Source of the DNA: Paracoccaceae bacterium
GTDB lineage: Bacteria; Pseudomonadota; Alphaproteobacteria; Rhodobacterales; Rhodobacteraceae
Assembly: GCA_030758115.1 (NCBI GenBank)
Contig: JANREX010000048.1
Coordinates: 20,775-84,774 of the forward strand
DNA length: 64,000 nt
Direction of reading: 5' to 3'
Numbering within the stretch: the first letter of the stretch is position 1; every line of letters starts with the position of its first letter. The position numbers were made by a program, and so were the translations under genes. The notes below the pieces were generated by a model. It was not told the origin of the DNA. It worked only from the letters and a program-made list of their open reading frames with translations, and did no database searches. Below are positions 3,103 to 33,550 of the stretch, piece by piece.

Positions 3103-4113
3103 ATGGCTACCAGAAAAAGCCAAAAGGTTTCAAACGTTTCCGCCGACGAGCTGAAAGGCTTTTACCGCGACATGCTGCTGATCCGGCGATTCGAGGAGAA
3201 GGCCGGCCAGCTTTACGGCATGGGTCTGATCGGCGGGTTCTGCCATCTCTACATCGGGCAGGAAGCGGTTGTCGTGGGTCTGGAAGCTGCCGCCGAGGAA
3301 GGCGACAAGCGCATCACATCCTACCGCGATCACGGGCACATGCTGGCCTGCGGGATGGATCCCAACGGCGTCATGGCCGAGTTGACGGGCCGCGAGGGGG
3401 GCTACTCCAAGGGCAAGGGCGGCTCGATGCACATGTTCTCGAAGGAGAAGCATTTCTACGGCGGGCACGGCATCGTGGGCGCGCAGGTGCCGCTGGGTGC
3501 GGGGCTGGCCTTTGCGGACAAGTACCTGGACAACAAGCGCGTGACCTTCGCCTATTTCGGGGATGGCGCGGCCAACCAGGGCCAGGTCTACGAGACCTTC
3601 AACATGGCGGCGCTGTGGAAGCTGCCGGTGATCTTCGTGATCGAGAACAACCAGTATGCGATGGGCACGTCGCAGCAGCGCTCGACCTCGTCGGCGGAAA
3701 TCTATGAGCGCGGCCATGCCTTCGGCATTCCGGGCGAAGCCGTGGATGGCATGGATGTTCTGGCGGTGAAGGCGGCGGGCGAAAAGGCCGTGGCGCACTG
3801 CCGGGCGGGCGATGGCCCCTATATCCTCGAGATCAAGACCTATCGCTATCGCGGGCATTCGATGTCGGACCCGGCGAAGTACCGGACCCGCGAGGAAGTG
3901 CAGAAGATGCGCGACGAGAAGGACGCCATCGAACATGTGCGCGACCTGCTGCTGTCGGGCAAGCACGCGACCGAAGATGACCTGAAGGCCATCGACAAGG
4001 AAATCAAGGATATCGTCAACGCGAGCGCCGAGTTCGCCAAGGAAAGCCCGGAACCCGCGCTGAGCGAACTCTGGACCGATATCTATGCCGACGAAGTGCC
4101 GCAGAGCGCGTAA
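3103..4113 (+). CDS. pdhA: Pyruvate dehydrogenase E1 component subunit alpha
   Basis: [61 protein letters not shown]. Confidence 0.96.
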
Positions 4114-6826: not shown

Positions 6827-6850
6827 TCCACCGGGTCGGATAAAGGAACA

Positions 6851-6884
6851 GGGCCGGATCACTGCGATGATCCGGCCCTTTTTT
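6851..6884 (+). terminator. Intrinsic terminator after pdhC
   Basis: GGGCCGGATCA-CTGCGA-TGATCCGGCCC then TTTTTT. Confidence 0.9.
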
Positions 6885-6901: not shown

Positions 6902-7711
6902 TTACAGGCTGTCGCGCAAGAGCTGATCCATGGTGATCGAGGGTGTCGCGCACCCCGCCTCGCCCACGACCTTGGCCGGCACGCCCGCCACGGTGGTCTT
7001 GGGCGGCACGTCATGCAGCACGACGGAACCGGCCGCAATGCGCGAGCAATGGCCGATGTGGATATTGCCCAGCACCTTGGCCCCTGCCCCGATCAGCACG
7101 CCTTCGCCGATCTTGGGGTGGCGGTCTTCCTCTTCCTTGCCGGTACCGCCCAGCGTCACCGAATGCAGCATCGAGACATTGTCGCCCACGACGGCGGTTT
7201 CGCCGATCACGATGGAATGGGCGTGGTCGATCATGATGCCCTTGCCGATCCGCGCGGCGGGATGGATATCCACGCCGAAAGCCTCGGACACGCGCATCTG
7301 GAAGAAATAAGCCAGATCCTGACGCCCGCTGTTCCACAGCCAATGGGCGATCCGGTAGGATTGCACGGCCTGGAAGCCCTTGAAGAACAGCAGCGGTTGC
7401 AGGAACCGGTGGCAGGCCGGGTCGCGGTCATAGACCGCCATGATATCGGCGCGCGCCGCCAGGGCGAGGCTGGGATCATCCGCATAGGCCTGATCGCAGA
7501 TTTCGCGGATCAACTGCTCGGACATCTCGCCCGAGGCCAGTTTCAGCGCGATTCGATAGGCCAACGCACATTCGATGGATCCGTGATGCAATACGCTGGA
7601 ATGGATCAATCCGCCCAGCATGGGCTCGTCCACCACGGCCTTTTCGGCCTCGGTCAGGATGCGGTTCCAGACCGGGTCGATCTGGGCGATTTTGGTCTTG
7701 GTCTTGGTCAT
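6902..7711 (-). CDS. cysE: Serine O-acetyltransferase
   Basis: MTKTKTKIAQIDPVWNRILTEAEKAVVDEPMLGG; hexapeptide repeats GKGIMIDHAHSIVIGETAVVGDNVSMLHSVTLGGTG; AAAGGA SD before ATG at 7711. Confidence 0.95.
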   Translation of the reverse strand: MTKTKTKIAQIDPVWNRILTEAEKAVVDEPMLGGLIHSSVLHHGSIECALAYRIALKLASGEMSEQLIREICDQAYADDPSLALAARADIMAVYDRDPACHRFLQPLLFFKGFQAVQSYRIAHWLWNSGRQDLAYFFQMRVSEAFGVDIHPAARIGKGIMIDHAHSIVIGETAVVGDNVSMLHSVTLGGTGKEEEDRHPKIGEGVLIGAGAKVLGNIHIGHCSRIAAGSVVLHDVPPKTTVAGVPAKVVGEAGCATPSITMDQLLRDSL

Positions 7712-8080
7712 GGGGCCTGTCCTTTTCGACGCCATATTAGACCAGATAGAGGGGGCGCGCCAAACGCAAAGCCGTGACATCGGAAAAATTCCTGCATCGG
7801 GGGTGTGGCGCGCGGCCAGTTGGGTCAGCACCAACGCAAGGCAGGCGGCGTAATCGGGATCGCTCAGACCCGGCTCGGGCGGCGGGACGGTGGCCAGCGC
7901 GCGGGCCATCAAGGTGCCATTGCCCCATGCGGGATGCGTCCGGCCAAAGCGCTTGCGATAGCGGTCCGCGGCATCGGCCTGCGCCATGAGGCGCGCAGAG
8001 GCCGCATGACGCACCGACGGGGGCAGGATCAGCAGATGCCGCGCGAGGGCGGTCAGATCGCCATGCATGACCGGGCGCAT
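6902..8080 (-). CDS. Alternative long ORF: small GTA-adjacent DUF-type protein (MRPVMHGDLTALARHLL...) continuous in frame with CysE
   Basis: ATG at 8080 overlaps the g15 stop (ATGA); ORF track shows no stop before the cysE stop at 6902 (393 codons). Confidence 0.55.
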   Translation of the reverse strand: MRPVMHGDLTALARHLLILPPSVRHAASARLMAQADAADRYRKRFGRTHPAWGNGTLMARALATVPPPEPGLSDPDYAACLALVLTQLAARHTPDAGIFPMSRLCVWRAPSIWSNMASKRTGPMTKTKTKIAQIDPVWNRILTEAEKAVVDEPMLGGLIHSSVLHHGSIECALAYRIALKLASGEMSEQLIREICDQAYADDPSLALAARADIMAVYDRDPACHRFLQPLLFFKGFQAVQSYRIAHWLWNSGRQDLAYFFQMRVSEAFGVDIHPAARIGKGIMIDHAHSIVIGETAVVGDNVSMLHSVTLGGTGKEEEDRHPKIGEGVLIGAGAKVLGNIHIGHCSRIAAGSVVLHDVPPKTTVAGVPAKVVGEAGCATPSITMDQLLRDSL

Positions 8081-11000
8081 CAGCCCCCCAAGGTCAGGGT
8101 GGCGCGGAAACCCGGGCCGAAACGGGCCGAGACCTGCGCCACCTCGATGCGGAGGTCCCCGCCCTGCGCATCGGCGGCCCGGTCCGCCGCCGCATAGGTC
8201 CATTGCGGGCTGGACAGGGTGATGTCGCGCAGGATGACCGCACCCTGCATGACACGCAGATGGTAGCTTTCGCTTTCCTCGCCCAGGGGGATATCGGGCG
8301 CCTCCCATGCGTCGGCGTCGATCCGGCCGCGCCGGGTCCATGCGACATGCAGATCCCCGCCCGGCGCCGCGACGGCCCGCAGATGCACGGGCGCCAGCGG
8401 TTTCAACCCGATTCCGGCAAAGCTGTCCTGAATCGCCACATAGGACGGATCATCAAACGGCCGCCACGCCGGGCCGATGCGGTAGTGTCGCAACAGGCCA
8501 CGGGCGTCGGATGGCAGGTCGATCTGCAGGGGTCGGCCATCCATCAGGACAAAGAAACTGCCCTCGGGCCAGGCCGATGGCATCACCGCATCGCTGCCAA
8601 GCTGACCGCGCAACAAGGTTTCCAGCCGCCAGGTATCGGGGGCAACCAGCGTGGCGGTGGCAAATTGAAAAAGCTCCCACCGGTCGGGGGTGCCATCGCC
8701 CAGCGCCGCAAGGTTGCCCCCCGCCAGCAGCGTGGGCAGGTCGATCGAGGAGAGCGAGCCGGATGTCAGCCTGACGGTCACCGCGTCCTGGCGGTGCAGA
8801 AGACCGGGGCGCGCGGCAGGCAAGCCATCCTGCGTGAGGCCGATCACGGCGGGCTGCGGCACGGTGCGGTTCAGCGCGAAGCCCTGACCCGTGGGCGAGG
8901 CATAGACGGCCGCGGCACCGGGCCAGGGATCGGCGGTCACGGCGATATGGGGCGCATGTGGCACCTCGTCCCCGGTCATCAGGGGAAGGTCCAAGAACAG
9001 CGGAAAGACCGGCAGCGGCGCCAGCGCGGGGCGCGTGCGCGGGGTTTCATCCTCGAGCGCGGCGGGCAGGTAGACGCCGGGTTCGACGCGCAGCGCCTCG
9101 ATCAGTTGCGCGCCCGCCAGTTCGACCCGGTCGATGCGATAGCTGGCACCGGTCGCGTCCCCCTCAAGCTGCAGCAGATCACCTGCCCCCAGATGCAGCA
9201 GCGAGGGCGGCAGGGCCAGACGCAGGCCGTCGCGGGCGATCCGCGCCTCGGCCAGCCAGCGTTCGGCGATCTGCCGCCCCTCGCCGCGGGTCAGCAGCAA
9301 GGGCAGTTCGGAGGCGGCGACCGCATGGGTCGCCTCGTCCGGCAGCACGGCTTCCTCGCTGATGGCGGGATAATCCGTATCGGCCTGCACGAAGCGCAGC
9401 CGCACACGCCCTGTCATCGCCGCTTCGGCGGCGCGGCTGTGCTGCGGGCGTGGCGGGCTGTCGGACTGATCGACAAGGGCGGCCAAGGGCACGGTCTGCG
9501 CCACCCCGTCGCGGCGCATCACGAAGCGCAGCGTCCCGTCGCGGTCCACCGCATCGAAGCCATGGGCCAGCATCAGCGGTTGCAGGGCCGCGCGGGCATC
9601 GGTGACCTGTGAGACGGCATAGCCGCGCACGATCCCGTGCAGCGTACTGGTGTCCCGCGCGGTGATCCCGGCGCGCGCGCAGATCTCGGACACCACCGAG
9701 GCCAGCGATCGCGACGCAAGCCGCCCCGTCACCCAGTGACCGCGCGCGTAATTGGGGGCATCGCCCCAAAGTGCCTCATTGCCGGGAAAGAACGGATAGG
9801 GCCGCGCATCCCAGGCCCAGACGAAGGCGCGCCCCATGTCCAGCATCGGCGCGCCATAGACGGCCGAGACCGGGTTGTTTTCGCCCTCGCGCCAGTAGCC
9901 CAGCATGGCGCGCAGGTATTGCATCTGGATCACCTCGTCGCGCTGCCCGTTGGAATAGGCGGGCAGGAAGGATTCCGAGGACTTGGGATCCAGAAACACG
10001 TTCGGCTGGTTGGTGCCCTTGTCCACCGCCGGACAGCCCAGTTCGGTGAACCAGACGGGTTTCGATTGCGGCACCCAGGCTGTGGGCTGGGCGCTGCGTT
10101 GCCCGCCGACCCGCTCGTGATGCGCGTTCAGCCACCAGTTGCGGATATCCTTGTAGCGCCAGATCCACGGCTCGTCATGGGCGGCATCGGTGATCGGGGT
10201 GCGGATCTGGGCGGCTTTCGCCTCGGGCGAGTGGTAGAACCAGTCGTAGCCCTCGCCGCCTTCGATATTGGCGCGCAGATAGGCGGGGTTGTAGATCGTG
10301 TTCCACTGCGCATCGGCATGATCGCGCCCCTCGCGCCAATCCGACAGCGGCATGTAATTGTCGATGCCCACGAAGTCGATATTGGCATCGGCCCAGAGCG
10401 GATCGAGGTGAAAGAACCTGTCGCCGGTGCCGTCGTTCGGCTGATAGCCGAAATATTCGGACCAGTCCGCCGCATAGCCGATTTTCACATTCGGCCCCAG
10501 GATCGCACGGACCTGGGCGGCCAGCGCGCGCAGGGCGGCGACGGCGGGAAAGCTGTTGTTCGCCCCGCGCAACTGCGTAAGGCCGCGCATTTCCGACCCG
10601 ATGCAGAAACTGTCCACCCCGCCCGCCGCCGCGCAAAGCGCCGCATGGTGCAGGATGAAGCGGTTGTAGCGCCATTCCTGCGGGCCGCTGTAGCCCACCT
10701 GCCCCGCTGCCACGGTGAAATGCGCGGCCTGCGCGCTGCCGAAGAAGGCCGCGACCTCGGCCTCGGCCTGGGTGGTGCCATCGGGGCTGCCGGGCCGCCC
10801 CGGTGCTTGCGACCCCGTGATGCGCCCGCGCCAGGGCAGGACGGGTTGATCGGCGGCGTCGCTATAGGGATCGGCGCGGCCGTTGCCGGCCAGCTGATCC
10901 ATCAGGATGAAGGGATAGACCATCACCGCCTGGCCCGACGCGGACAGGCGGCGGATCGCGCCGATCACGGATTGATCGGTGGGCGTGCCGCCATAGACGG

Positions 11001-18889: not shown

Positions 18890-19152
18890 GGCAGGCCCGC
18901 CATCGGGGCCGCTGTCATTATCGACTGGAACGCCTGGGCCAGGATCACGGCCACGACGCCGTAGACCGTCAGCCAGAGCCGTTTTTCCAGCTTCTCGATC
19001 AAGGCCTCGAGCTTTTCGGCGCGCCGGTTCAACCCTTCGATATGCAGGTTTGATACGCGCTCATGGGCCTCCAGCCGCAGCGCGGGTGCGCAATCGAAGG
19101 CTTCGAACCCATAGCGCCCCGCTTCGCGCGGGACCCCGCGTGTCTCGCTCAT
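18886..19152 (-). CDS. orfg3.5: GTA g3.5: small membrane-associated protein
   Basis: Coiled coil + C-terminal TM (NRRAEKLEALIEKLEKRLWLTVYGVVAVILAQAF); between portal and protease. Confidence 0.85.
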   Translation of the reverse strand: MSETRGVPREAGRYGFEAFDCAPALRLEAHERVSNLHIEGLNRRAEKLEALIEKLEKRLWLTVYGVVAVILAQAFQSIMTAAPMAGLP

Positions 19153-20354
19153 TCCGCGGCTCCCTGCCCGTCAGGCCCGACCAAGGCGAGCGCAGGCAAA
19201 CCCAGCAACGCGCGCTTTTCGGCATCGGTCAGAAAGGTCGCATCGGCCACGCGGCGCCATTGCAGGTCACGCTCGGCCGCAAGGGCGGGCACCTGGTCCA
19301 GATCGGGGTGCAGGTCCAGCACCTCGCCGGTGAAACGTGACAGCCATTCGGCCAGGGCGGCCACCACGCGCGTCGCCATCGGCAGCACCGTCAGCCGATA
19401 AAGCGCGCGATTGGCCTCCTGATAGTTGGCAAAGGTCGCATCACCCGGAATGCCCAGCAGCATCGGCGGCACGCCGAAGGCCAGCGCGATCTCGCGCGCG
19501 GCACTTTCCTTGGTCTGCTGGAATTCCATGTCCGAGGGCGAAAAGCCCATCGGCTTCCAATCCAGACCGCCCTCCAGCAACATGGGCCGGCCTGCGTTGC
19601 GCGCCCCCTGGTGGTGGCTTTCCATCTCGGACACAAGCCGGTCGTATTGATCGGCACTCAGGCTGCCCTGCCCTTCGGCCCCGCGATAGACGATCGCGCC
19701 CGAAGGCCGCGCGGCATTGTCCAGCAGCGCCTTTGACCAGCGGCTGGCGGCATTGTGCACATCCACCGCCTGCGCCGCCGCCTGCATGGGCGAAAAACCA
19801 TAGTGATCATCCTGCGGATGAAAGCTCTTGATATGGCAGATCGGTGCCAGGGGCGTGCTGACATCGAAACGATGCTTGCGTCCGCCAACGTTGTAATCAT
19901 AGGCCACCGGCCAGCCATCGGGGCCGGGGATCAGGCTCATGCGGTCCGAGCGCAGCACATGCAGTTCGGCAAGCGCCCCCGCATCCGTCGTGACCAGCTC
20001 CAGATAGCCATTGCCGGTCAGCAGCAGCTGCGCATAAAGCGCCTCGAGCAATTCGGCGCGGCCCTGTGCGGGGTTGGGATTGCCCAGCAGGGCCAAGACG
20101 GGGTGCGCCTCGAAACGACGCCCCGCCCCTTGCAGTACCAGCGGCAGGGCCGCCGCCGCCTCGGACAGCAGCTTGACACAGCGAAATCCGACCGGATTGC
20201 CGGTATAGCCCGTCCGCGTCAAAGATACGGTGTCACGCGGGCTCCAGGCGACGCGGCCCGCGCCCTGGAAGGCCAGCACGGGACCTGCGGCGCTGGCCTT
20301 CTGCTCGGGCGCTGCCTGATCCGCGCCACCGCGTTTGAGGAATTGAAAAACCAT
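19149..20354 (-). CDS. orfg3: GTA g3: portal protein (HK97 family)
   Basis: TGNPVGFRCVKLLSEAAAALPL, AFGVPPMLLGIPGDATFANYQEANRALYRLTVLP. Confidence 0.95.
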   Translation of the reverse strand: MVFQFLKRGGADQAAPEQKASAAGPVLAFQGAGRVAWSPRDTVSLTRTGYTGNPVGFRCVKLLSEAAAALPLVLQGAGRRFEAHPVLALLGNPNPAQGRAELLEALYAQLLLTGNGYLELVTTDAGALAELHVLRSDRMSLIPGPDGWPVAYDYNVGGRKHRFDVSTPLAPICHIKSFHPQDDHYGFSPMQAAAQAVDVHNAASRWSKALLDNAARPSGAIVYRGAEGQGSLSADQYDRLVSEMESHHQGARNAGRPMLLEGGLDWKPMGFSPSDMEFQQTKESAAREIALAFGVPPMLLGIPGDATFANYQEANRALYRLTVLPMATRVVAALAEWLSRFTGEVLDLHPDLDQVPALAAERDLQWRRVADATFLTDAEKRALLGLPALALVGPDGQGAAE

Positions 20355-20485: not shown

Positions 20486-21862
20486 TCAGAGCGCGCGCAC
20501 CTGCGGGCGTCGCCATTGGGCCGAGGGTGCGATGATCAGCTCGTGCAGCGCCCAGACCAGCGCATCAAGGCGGTCGGGGCTGCCCTTGCCGACATAGCCC
20601 TGCGCCGTCATCGCGCACATCTGGTCCTCAAGATCGCCCAGCGGACCGTGATGAAAGACCCGGCCCTGCTCGTACAGGGCTGCCACCGGCTCGGCCCGTG
20701 CCGCCTTGCCGCGCGAGGCATGCACCTTGCGGAAAGGCACCAGGGGATCGACCTGCCGGATCACCGCCTCGACCATGTCGCCGCCCTGGTTGACCTCGGC
20801 CACCAGGCGTTCCGCGCCCCAGCGTTCCATCAGGGCAATCGCGCGCTGTGCCCATTGCGCGGGGCTGGCACCTGCGATGCTGGCATCCTCCAGCACGAAG
20901 GCGCGCCAATCCTGCACCGGGCCGCGCGTGACCGCCCCCACCGCGACGATGCCGCATTCATCCGATCCGCCATGGCCGGTCGTGGCCGGGTCGACCGCCA
21001 CCACGATACGGTCAAGTTCGGGCAAGACCGGCGCGCGCACCTGTTCCAGTTGCGCCCCCGTCCACAGCGCACCTTCCGCATCCTCCAGCAGGACACCATC
21101 CAGTTCCTGCCGCCCCAGGCGCGTGCCCGCATAGCGGATGCGCACCTCTTCCAGGAAAGAGCTGGCCAGGTTGGCCGCATTCGCCTCGGTCGGGGCGTGG
21201 GTCACCACCGTGCTGGGCAGTTTCAACAGCTCTTTCAGAACCCCCACATTGCGCGGGGTCGTGGTGATGCAGACCTGCGGGTCGTCACCAAGACGCAGGG
21301 CGAATTGCAGCATGTCCCATGTCTCGGCGCTTTTCTTCCACTTGGCCAATTCATCCACCCAGGCGCCGTCGAATTGCGGCCCGCGCAGGGATTCCGGCTC
21401 ATGCGCCGAAAAGGCCTGCGCCGTGGCGCCGTTCGGCCAGATCAGCATCCGCCGCGTGGCATGCCACTCGGGCCGCCGATCGGGGGGCGAACAGGCCAGG
21501 ATGCCGCTTTCGCCAAAGACCATGACCTCGCGCACCTGGTCGAGTGTCTCACCCACCAGGGCGATGCGACGGCAGCGCCCATGATCCAGCGGGCGCGAGC
21601 CTTCCACGCAGGCGCGGATCCATTCCGCCCCGGCCCGCGTCTTGCCTGCGCCACGACCGCCCATGATTACCCAGGAACGCCAGTTGCCCGCAGGGGGCAA
21701 TTGATGCGGCATGGCCCAGAAATCGAACAGGAACGGCAGCGCGAGGATCTCGGCCTCGTCCAATTCGTCAAGGAACGATTTTTGGACCTCGACAGGTTCG
21801 CAGGCGATCCAGTCGGCACCTGAGCTGAGATCGTGCTGCGTCGAAGTCAATGGCATATTCAT
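20486..21862 (-). CDS. orfg2: GTA g2: terminase large subunit
   Basis: Walker A GGRGAGKTRAGAEWI, GAWVDELAKW, VVAVDPATTGHGGSDECGIV. Confidence 0.95.
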   Translation of the reverse strand: MNMPLTSTQHDLSSGADWIACEPVEVQKSFLDELDEAEILALPFLFDFWAMPHQLPPAGNWRSWVIMGGRGAGKTRAGAEWIRACVEGSRPLDHGRCRRIALVGETLDQVREVMVFGESGILACSPPDRRPEWHATRRMLIWPNGATAQAFSAHEPESLRGPQFDGAWVDELAKWKKSAETWDMLQFALRLGDDPQVCITTTPRNVGVLKELLKLPSTVVTHAPTEANAANLASSFLEEVRIRYAGTRLGRQELDGVLLEDAEGALWTGAQLEQVRAPVLPELDRIVVAVDPATTGHGGSDECGIVAVGAVTRGPVQDWRAFVLEDASIAGASPAQWAQRAIALMERWGAERLVAEVNQGGDMVEAVIRQVDPLVPFRKVHASRGKAARAEPVAALYEQGRVFHHGPLGDLEDQMCAMTAQGYVGKGSPDRLDALVWALHELIIAPSAQWRRPQVRAL

Positions 21863-22130
21863 GGGCGACACCTGTAGCTGCCTTGCGGTATGTTTCAATT
21901 TCGGTCTCCACGTCATTTGCTTGTTTCAGCCAGTACCGGATGTCGGACAGCAGGCGCGCACCCTCGCGGATCGCGCCCTGATCGCCTTCGGCAAAACGGG
22001 ACTGGTAGTCGATGAGTTCCGATTTCATGATCCCAAGCTGGAGGTCGATGAGATCGATCCTGGCCTGCAAGGCCGTTGACCTGTCGTGCAATTGGTCATC
22101 GGGCCCCGCGCGGGGGGCTGTTTCTGACAT
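21768..22130 (-). CDS. orfg1: GTA g1: small terminase-like protein
   Basis: MSETAPRAGPDDQLHDRSTALQARIDLIDLQLGIMKSELIDYQSRFAEGDQGAIREGARLLSDIRYWLKQAND; first gene of cluster, overlaps g2. Confidence 0.85.
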   Translation of the reverse strand: MSETAPRAGPDDQLHDRSTALQARIDLIDLQLGIMKSELIDYQSRFAEGDQGAIREGARLLSDIRYWLKQANDVETEIETYRKAATGVAHEYAIDFDAARSQLRCRLDRLRTCRGPKIVP

Positions 22131-22177
22131 GATGCTTGCTGTGCCTCGCTTCTGTGTGTCTCGGACCGCAAGACATG

Positions 22178-22210
22178 AAAAAACGGCGACCGGGTTTCCC
22201 CGGCGCCGTT
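22178..22210 (-). terminator. Intrinsic terminator-like hairpin in the presumptive g1 leader
   Basis: Minus strand AACGGCGCCGGG-GAAA-CCCGGTCGCCGTT followed by a T-run. Confidence 0.85.
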
Positions 22211-22235
22211 GACGCATTTCTTCCAGCTTTCACAA

Positions 22236-22264
22236 CCTATACGCTAGACCGCGCGGAATGTCAA
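22236..22264 (-). promoter_or_regulatory. Candidate sigma70-type promoter for the GTA cluster
   Basis: Minus strand TTGACA-N17-TATAGG; predicted start near 22229, about 100 nt upstream of g1. Confidence 0.6.
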
Positions 22265-22347: not shown

Positions 22348-23514
22348 TCAATCGGACTGGCCCTGTCTTTCCCGCTCGGCTTCGATGCGGCGCCATTCGG
22401 CCACGTTGCGGTTATGCTCTTCCAGGGTCACCGCAAAGGCATGACCGCCGGTGCCGTCAGCCACGAAGAACACGAAAGGCGTGTCATCGGGATCAAGTGC
22501 CGCCTCGATGCTGGCGCGCCCCGGATTGGCGATGGGCGTCGGCGGCAGACCCTCGATCACATAGGTGTTCCAGGGTGTCTGTCCGCGCAGCTCGCTCTGG
22601 CGCAGACCGCGCCCCAGCACGCCCTGCCCCTTGGTGATGCCATAGATCACCGTCGGGTCCGTTTGCAGCCGCATGCCACGGTTCAGCCGGTTCACGAAGA
22701 CCGAAGCCACCTGGCGCCGCTCCTCGGCCACGCCGGTTTCCTTTTCGATGATCGAGGCCAGGATCAGCGCCTCTTCGGGGCTGGCCAGCGGCAGCCCGTC
22801 GACACGGTTGGCCCAGGCTTCGGCAAGGATGGCCTGTTGCGCAGCGGTCATCCGCGCCAGCAGATCGACGCGCGACTGGCCGGGAATGACCTCATAACTG
22901 TCAGGCGCCAGCGTTCCTTCGGCAGGAACCTCGGTCACCTCGCCCTCGAGGATTTCAAGGCGCGACAGCGAGTCGACGACCTGCCAGCTGGTCACGCCTT
23001 CTGCCAGGGCCACGCGGTAGCGGGTGTCGTTGCGCGCACGGACCTGGGTGTAATCTGCGGGAGGCACTTCTTCGGCCGGGTTGAAGCTGGCCTTTTCCTC
23101 GTAACGCGAGGTGACGGGATCCAGCTCGCGCACCACGACCGAGGCGCTGTTGACCCCGATGCGGTAAACCACCTCGGTGCCGCAGGTGCTTGGCCCGCCG
23201 CGCGTGATGATGTCCACGATGTCGGACATCGGCGTGCCGGGGGGTATCAGGAAACTGCCTGCCTTCAGCAGGTCGGATTTCTCGCTGTAATCCGCGCCCA
23301 GCCGGAAGATGCGCGCATTCGTGATGGCGCCCTGGTCCTGCAGGTTGCGGCTGACGCGCGCGATGGAAGAGCCGCGTTCGACCTGCAGGCAGATGGCCTG
23401 GTCCAGCGGCCCCTGTGCCGAATATTCACGCTGCCCCCAAAGGATCACCCCGGCCAACAGAAAGACCGCCACGATCAGAAAGGTGACCGCGTTCGAGGCG
23501 ATGTGCCGCCACAT
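22348..23514 (-). CDS. mltG: Endolytic transglycosylase MltG
   Basis: EEALILASIIEKETGVAEERRQVASVFVNRLNRGMRLQTDPTVIYGIT...NTYVIEGLPPTPIANPG. Confidence 0.96.
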   Translation of the reverse strand: MWRHIASNAVTFLIVAVFLLAGVILWGQREYSAQGPLDQAICLQVERGSSIARVSRNLQDQGAITNARIFRLGADYSEKSDLLKAGSFLIPPGTPMSDIVDIITRGGPSTCGTEVVYRIGVNSASVVVRELDPVTSRYEEKASFNPAEEVPPADYTQVRARNDTRYRVALAEGVTSWQVVDSLSRLEILEGEVTEVPAEGTLAPDSYEVIPGQSRVDLLARMTAAQQAILAEAWANRVDGLPLASPEEALILASIIEKETGVAEERRQVASVFVNRLNRGMRLQTDPTVIYGITKGQGVLGRGLRQSELRGQTPWNTYVIEGLPPTPIANPGRASIEAALDPDDTPFVFFVADGTGGHAFAVTLEEHNRNVAEWRRIEAERERQGQSD

Positions 23515-33465: not shown

Positions 33466-33550
33466 TGGTGCGGGTGGAGGGACTTGAACCCCCACGCCTT
33501 GCGGCGCCAGAACCTAAATCTGGTGCGTCTACCAATTTCGCCACACCCGC
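33466..33550 (-). tRNA. tRNA-Leu (anticodon TAG), CCA encoded
   Basis: GCGGGTGTGGCGAAATTGGTAGACGCACCAGATTTAGGTTCTGGCGCCGCAAGGCGTGGGGGTTCAAGTCCCTCCACCCGCACCA folds as a class II tRNA; loop TTTAGGT gives TAG. Confidence 0.96.

Follow-up and report, generated by a model that had tools for sequence, protein, structure and literature searches.

A conserved terminator hairpin between the promoter and the first gene of the GTA cluster in Rhodobacteraceae

Introduction

Among the closest described counterparts of the locus studied here is the GTA of Caulobacter crescentus, a homologous operon controlled by GafY, GafZ and IHF, whose activator is homologous to GafA (PMC11150451). GafZ, the homolog of the GafA C-terminal domain, binds between the −35 and −10 elements of the GTA promoter in Caulobacter and associates with RNA polymerase (RNAP) as well as NusA/G/E; it enables RNAP to read through a terminator situated after the first gene, and also through rrnB T1 (PMC11150451). 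Tran & Le (2024) raised the idea that GafA might likewise have an unrecognized anti-termination activity (PMC11150451).

GafA itself has been studied at the promoter of the Rhodobacter capsulatus GTA (RcGTA). The RcGTA start, as determined by RNA-seq, lies within a probe spanning 76 to 125 bp upstream of g1 (Fogg 2019, PMC6363796), and it was solely this 50-bp probe that GafA bound (PMC6363796); binding by the GafA C-terminal domain was subsequently placed at the same 76- to 125-bp fragment (Sherlock & Fogg 2022, PMC9638019). GafA has been described as an initiation activator, with recruitment through the omega subunit of RNAP (PMC9638019), and the on/off decision has been attributed to the regulation of gafA, through CtrA, quorum sensing and autoregulation (PMC6363796). 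A text search of PMC6363796 and PMC9638019 found no mention of a leader terminator or hairpin.

The locus described below resembles that of Caulobacter in two respects: the spacer of its promoter holds a conserved candidate element, and close to where the operon begins there is an intrinsic obstacle that would need readthrough. The two differ in the form and place of that obstacle: in Caulobacter, terGTA is made up of three repeats of 150 bp each that lie beyond the first gene and follow a leader of ~250 nt, whereas the leader in our source genome carries a single classical hairpin with a U-tract, 20 to 50 nt after the start and upstream of g1, at constant spacing. They also differ in the spacer element, CGnnCG(g)T as against the Caulobacter palindrome GCGCCCG-CTGGCGC, and in the activator, GafA being one fused protein in contrast to GafY/GafZ. 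The module is also present at the RcGTA promoter that was studied experimentally in PMC6363796 and PMC9638019.

Promoter and leader hairpin of the GTA cluster

The window, by which we mean the whole stretch of 64,000 nucleotides that was analyzed, contains a GTA cluster on the minus strand, with the following genes at its 5′ end.

21768..22130, minus strand: g1, small terminase (TerS), first gene of the GTA cluster, with its ATG at 22130; TerL and portal follow
20486..21916, minus strand: g2, large terminase, assigned by position and length
19149..20354, minus strand: g3, HK97-type portal (TIGR01537)
22348..23514, minus strand: mltG (TIGR00247), the upstream gene, which is host context outside the module

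For g2, NCBIfam gave no match; the best PDB match of g3 was the R. capsulatus GTA portal Rcc01684 (6tba, E 9e-182). Upstream of g1 lie mltG, fabF and an ORF with acyl carrier protein-like sequence. Homologs of g1 were found in 148 of the 298 genera of the family, mostly behind the same leader, and in all 7 of 7 genomes of the genus. The region ahead of g1 contains these features.

22259..22264, minus strand: TTGACA, −35 element of the promoter of g1 and the GTA cluster, read directly
22248..22255, minus strand: spacer element CGCGCGGT (consensus CGnnCGgT), a candidate contact for the GafA C-terminal domain
22236..22241, minus strand: −10 element TATAGG, without a −7T, separated from TTGACA by a 17-nt spacer
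22211..22229, minus strand: initially transcribed region from A22229, the predicted +1; its consensus in the family is CAnGCTnGAAGAagTGgGcaA
22182..22210, minus strand: leader terminator hairpin AACGGCGCCGGGGAAACCCGGTCGCCGTT, from folding, a terminator scan and family covariation
22178..22183, minus strand: terminator U-tract of six Us, the first two of which also pair in the stem
22157..22175, minus strand: second, weaker stem-loop TGTCTTG-CGGTC-CGAGACA between the terminator and g1, from folding

A consensus promoter scan missed the g1 promoter because the scan demands a T at the last position of the −10 element; this −7T is absent from most alphaproteobacterial sigma-70 promoters (PMC8407463). 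We infer that transcription starts at A22229, consistent with the RcGTA start mapped 76 to 125 bp upstream of g1. Relative to this +1, the base of the hairpin is at +20, the end of the U-run at +52 and the g1 ATG at +100.

The hairpin reads AACGGCG-CCGGG-GAAA-CCCGG-(U)-CGCCGUU, a GC-rich stem of 12 bp with one bulged U and a GAAA loop, and together with the U-run forms AACGGCGCCGGGGAAACCCGGTCGCCGTTTTTT (22210-22178, minus strand). Folding of the hairpin region gave −25.3 kcal/mol (z = −4.1), a value that none of 200 shuffled sequences equaled, and the terminator ΔG ranged from −22.9 to −25.3 kcal/mol across analyses. From upstream of g1 to the end of the cluster (window 1-22300), this is the sole classical intergenic terminator of the minus-strand GTA cluster; the other candidates lie inside coding sequence. 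An initial annotation of this DNA had placed a TTGACA-N17-TATAGG promoter (22264..22236) ahead of g1 and a hairpin with a U-run (22210..22178) in its leader, and direct reading and the fold energy bore out both. With a GC-rich stem, a short loop and a U-tract immediately after, the element has the sequence of an intrinsic terminator, and we regard it as almost certainly being one. A search of Rfam found no family matching the leader.

The second stem-loop occurs in many relatives as CTCTCGTGC...GCATGAGAG, and its R. capsulatus equivalent lies downstream of position 4088 in the locus described below. It overlaps a purine-rich, Shine-Dalgarno-like GAGAGG, and translational control is possible there.

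Conservation of promoter and hairpin across the family

To compare leaders, we took ~1.5 kb upstream of g1 homologs where available, oriented the sequences and located the start codon and mltG, which gave 134 usable loci, nearly all from different genera. A locus was scored as having the hairpin if the coding strand carried, within 115 nt of g1, a hairpin of −14 kcal/mol or lower plus a T-run. The initial annotation had suggested looking for a conserved hairpin in other Rhodobacterales GTA clusters, and one was found at 102 of the 134 loci, compared with 14 on the opposite strand and 8 to 11 in dinucleotide shuffles (Fisher 3e-29). Applied to the adjoining 110 nt farther upstream, the same test gave 17 hairpins, and inside g1 it gave 6. 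A chance hairpin is ruled out by these comparisons with shuffles and the opposite strand, together with the z score of the fold. At the other 32 loci no leader hairpin passed the test, and a few of these still matched the covariance model described below.

Alignment of 99 promoter-leaders, which had been picked for having the hairpin (the unbiased frequency being that among the 134 loci), gave the consensus cTTGAC-tttgCGnnCGgTct...GTAta..TTgtG.CAtGCTaGAAGAagTGgGcaAgCGGCcc.GGGg-loop-CCC.g.gGcCG.TTTTtc.TtTCtctCGtgCGGag. Upstream of the −35 element there was no sequence conservation, and the −35 element, the spacer CGnnCG, the −10 element and the start region were all conserved. In the −35 element, the TTGA of TTGAC was present in 100% of sequences and the C in 98%; the TA of the −10 element was conserved at 95 to 99%. 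The spacer element had its C at 91%, G at 97%, C at 97%, G at 89% and T at 85%, the rest of the spacer being variable. Its position matches that of the GafZ site in Caulobacter, and by analogy we consider CGnnCGgT a candidate contact for the GafA C-terminal domain. In the start region, CA, GCT and G..GA were conserved. In 87 of the 99 sequences, 22 nt separated the conserved CA, with its A taken as +1, from the first paired GGCC column; the T-tract was retained in 96.

The stem evolves as a paired structure. In the 99-sequence alignment, 89.0% of cells were paired, versus 76.6% in shuffles, and double-sided changes occurred in 91 cells, versus 31, with 7 of the 8 consensus pairs carrying them. 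The covariation score was 0.372, versus 0.168 after shuffling, and none of 500 shuffles reached the observed pairing or covariation values. When the partner was shifted by one column, pairing fell to 57 to 58%, a control that somewhat favors the structure, which was derived from the same alignment.

A covariance model of promoter and hairpin built from the 99 sequences (R1) found one GTA-leader match in the source genome, at 100.9 bits; the next matches (22.0 and 21.4 bits) were ordinary gene-end terminators with poor promoter parts, and we rejected them as further copies of the module. Within the family, R1 matched 217 of 298 genera (E ≤ 1e-4); within the order, it matched 331 of 395 genomes (E ≤ 0.01), some of these weakly (E 1e-3 to 1e-7), and the weak matches may represent decayed or diverged leaders. 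Every one of the 80 named loci that had been retrieved by means of the R. capsulatus portal was matched as well, including R. capsulatus itself and members of Rhodobacter, Sinirhodobacter, Thioclava, Paracoccus, Phaeovulum and Gemmobacter. In a class-wide sample, R1 matches were limited to genomes of the same family plus one in another family (G650), which we took as chance, nothing GTA-like being present in the DNA read there. We concluded from these alignments that promoter and hairpin are one deeply conserved module, with a fixed spacing, a covarying stem and a family-wide distribution.

Within the start region, the motif GCTaGAA (~+3 to +9; columns 46-58 of alignment A2) resembles an alphaproteobacterial −10 element. 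That it might serve as a sigma-dependent promoter-proximal pause signal, as in Q-type systems, is only an idea drawn from that analogy.

The Rhodobacter capsulatus promoter and the distribution of gafA

The R. capsulatus DSM 1710 locus (L159) has the same arrangement, with these positions.

L159 3944-3971: separate classical terminator after mltG, upstream of the promoter
L159 4005: −35 element
L159 4028: −10 element
L159 4039-4040: conserved CA
L159 from 4058: hairpin AAGCGCAACGGGAAACCGTTTGCGCTT followed by Ts, directly downstream of the GafA-bound fragment
L159 4134: g1 ATG

The predicted start is at −94 relative to g1. The published GafA-bound probe corresponds to L159 4009-4058 and thus covers the spacer, the −10 element, the +1 and the start region, ending where the stem begins.

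We located R. capsulatus gafA by its published CtrA site, TTAAC-N6-GTAAC. The ORF that follows 69 nt later spans 380 codons and has a helix-turn-helix-like segment at its N terminus; from these published features we infer that this ORF is gafA. A route to GafA through the DnaA-domain HMM (PF08299) was unproductive. With R. capsulatus gafA as the query, a homolog with 58% identity was found in the source genome (contig C22, 27854-29017, minus strand), and gafA was present in 274 of 298 genera. The leader occurred in 213 of the 274 genera with gafA versus 4 of the 24 without it (Fisher 3e-9), an association that could reflect the mere joint presence of a GTA. A CGnnCG motif shared by gafA promoters was set aside, since it occurs too often in GC-rich DNA to be informative. 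The regions upstream of gafA (L239, L245-L264) contain, besides the CtrA site, long conserved blocks (GTGTTGCG, TTTAGnATTTnnAAACAATTAT and CAACCCACGGTTG-like), and the conservation of these sequences suggests further conserved regulators.

Proposed terminator readthrough and alternative explanations

We propose that the GTA structural operon carries a terminator built into its 5′ leader, at which unmodified polymerase, coming from the g1 promoter or from upstream, would stop ~50 nt after the start. GafA would bind the spacer, the −10 element and the start region via its GafZ-like C-terminal domain and travel with RNAP, letting the polymerase past the leader terminator, and the lethal particle cluster would then need both promoter activation and elongation licensing. 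The initial annotation had already seen in a terminator placed between promoter and g1 a promoter-proximal checkpoint needing readthrough, an idea that the present analysis supports; the “initiation factor changing elongation” that it envisaged fits GafA, which is probably the readthrough factor. Conceivably, readthrough also sets the stochastic “on” state that the annotation had in mind, a decision that published work attributes to the regulation of gafA (PMC6363796). Overall, we think it likely that the leader terminator stops transcription that has not been licensed, and that polymerase reads through it once GafA has been loaded at the promoter. In vivo, the leader would then terminate transcription, and readthrough would depend on GafA. 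Several points weigh against this explanation: the consensus-like −35 element could allow some GafA-independent initiation, the R. capsulatus GafA studies stress omega recruitment, not elongation, the link between gafA and the leader may come from joint GTA presence, and among the 32 of 134 loci at which no leader hairpin passed the test is a group that keeps a promoter-like start region but has no hairpin.

A more far-reaching form of the proposal, to which we give an even chance, is that the family shares a licensing module that is compact and coupled to the promoter, consisting of the spacer element, an early transcribed region that does not vary and the terminator at a fixed +22. Through it, GafA would make the initiating polymerase terminator resistant within the first 50 nt, and ordinary polymerase, wherever it came from, would be unable to express the lethal GTA operon. 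If this is true, R. capsulatus GafA acts as an anti-terminator, and the leader is among the earliest-acting natural antitermination checkpoints.

The same terminator and promoter facts would fit equally well if the hairpin were a passive barrier to leaky or read-through transcription and GafA acted purely at initiation, strong initiation overcoming a leaky terminator with the elongating polymerase unchanged. Recruitment of GafA via omega, which is documented (PMC9638019), is in keeping with such a role. A barrier of this kind would, however, be expected upstream of the promoter, as is the mltG-side terminator of R. capsulatus, whereas the terminator lies within the GTA transcription unit, 22 nt after the start and at fixed spacing, where it penalizes the operon's own promoter in about 100 genera; moreover, the homologous GafZ is an anti-terminator (PMC11150451). 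We therefore regard passive insulation as unlikely.

Attenuators, too, typically have a hairpin terminator in the 5′ leader, and readthrough would then be decided by a leader peptide, by an anti-terminator fold competing with the hairpin or by an RNA that binds a ligand. Of the 86 sequences that contain the start motif, 46 have an ATG at +1. This ATG is nevertheless missing from the other 40 and from the window, and the ORFs that begin with it range from 4 to 100 codons, with no conserved leader ORF among them. Only ~20 nt separate the +1 from the stem, and no conserved fold was found between +1 and the loop, so there is little room for an RNA-only switch. On these fold and ORF results and the Rfam search, we rejected an RNA-only attenuator, whether by leader peptide or by alternative fold, as very improbable.

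The hairpin lies ~140 nt after mltG in the source genome, where no other strong mltG terminator is obvious, and the initial annotation had offered as its alternative that the hairpin is a mere mltG 3′ terminator and that GTA transcription starts elsewhere, downstream of 22178. This reading fails on the loci without an adjacent mltG, 32 of 49 of which keep the hairpin on the coding strand (1 has it on the other strand), and on the joint conservation of promoter and hairpin at a fixed spacing. Separate mltG-side terminators exist in some genera (9 of the 102 hairpin loci have an extra upstream terminator) and in R. capsulatus, and the RcGTA start was mapped upstream of the hairpin (PMC6363796). 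In sequence terms, the module is independent of mltG, and we consider the alternative scarcely credible.

It is least credible of all that the hairpin serves RNA stability or that the short terminated RNA acts itself: the position of the U-tract does predict a defined ~50-nt RNA, but the U-tract (96 of 99) is conserved as strongly as the stem, whose sequence varies freely with pairing kept, a pattern that points to termination over a sequence-specific RNA.

Relation to known antitermination systems

Antitermination of a GTA is already known from Caulobacter. It reportedly also controls the Bartonella GTA, BaGTA, as announced in the title of a 2025 paper by Korotaev et al. (eLife RP105142); as far as that title tells, BaGTA is alike in the antitermination of a GTA and differs in its separate, chimeric phage origin. 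By analogy, the GTA leader may also be likened to the Q systems of lambda and phage 21 and to Pseudomonas AlpA, in which a DNA-loaded factor at the promoter spacer, a constrained early transcribed region and a terminator shortly downstream recur. They differ in having no sequence relation, and GafZ has been stated to be unlike Q or AlpA (PMC11150451). The Rhodobacteraceae leader terminator is undescribed in PMC6363796, PMC9638019, PMC11150451 and the other literature that could be searched, with prior mention possible, for example in older RcGTA genetics; a family-wide leader terminator thus appears to be new to the literature.

For the archetypal GTA of R. capsulatus, the hairpin would be a concrete site at which the antitermination suggested for GafA by Tran & Le could act, and the question of whether GafA is an initiation activator, an anti-terminator or both is reduced to one hairpin at a well-studied promoter. 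A leader terminator would also explain the silence of a lethal operon directly behind the housekeeping genes acpP, fabF and mltG. R1 offers a ready marker of functional GTA promoters across the order.

Loci lacking the hairpin and further hairpins

Several loci (L010, L017, L018, L019, L022, L024, L027, L028, L029 and L040) have an alternative, longer g1 leader without the terminator hairpin, which ends in ...ACAGGCAA(G/C)AAAGGTATCGAGC before or near the ATG, also given as ...GGCAAGAAAGGTATCGAGC-ATG; several of these genera keep a promoter-like start region, CATGCTGGAC. Since this group exists, the terminator is not indispensable, and the group provides a natural comparison set for its role.

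A second strong terminator-like hairpin lies upstream of the portal gene, at the g2/g3 boundary (L159 5870-5899, with equivalents in L159-L238). It was found at 71 of 80 loci of the Rhodobacter/Paracoccus/Thioclava group versus 6 of 35 other genera and is absent from the window; we therefore rejected it as a general feature and regard it as lineage restricted. Where present, it would be a second antitermination target. When GafA was overexpressed, capsid was induced less than terminase (PMC6363796), and the g2/g3 hairpin could relate to this weaker induction.

Elsewhere in the window, a plus-strand terminator-like hairpin, AGGGCCGGATCACTGCGATGATCCGGCCCT-TTTTT (6850-6879), lies just past the end of the minus-strand ORF at 6902-8341, and a tRNA-Leu, the sole tRNA found in the window, lies at 33466-33550 on the minus strand.
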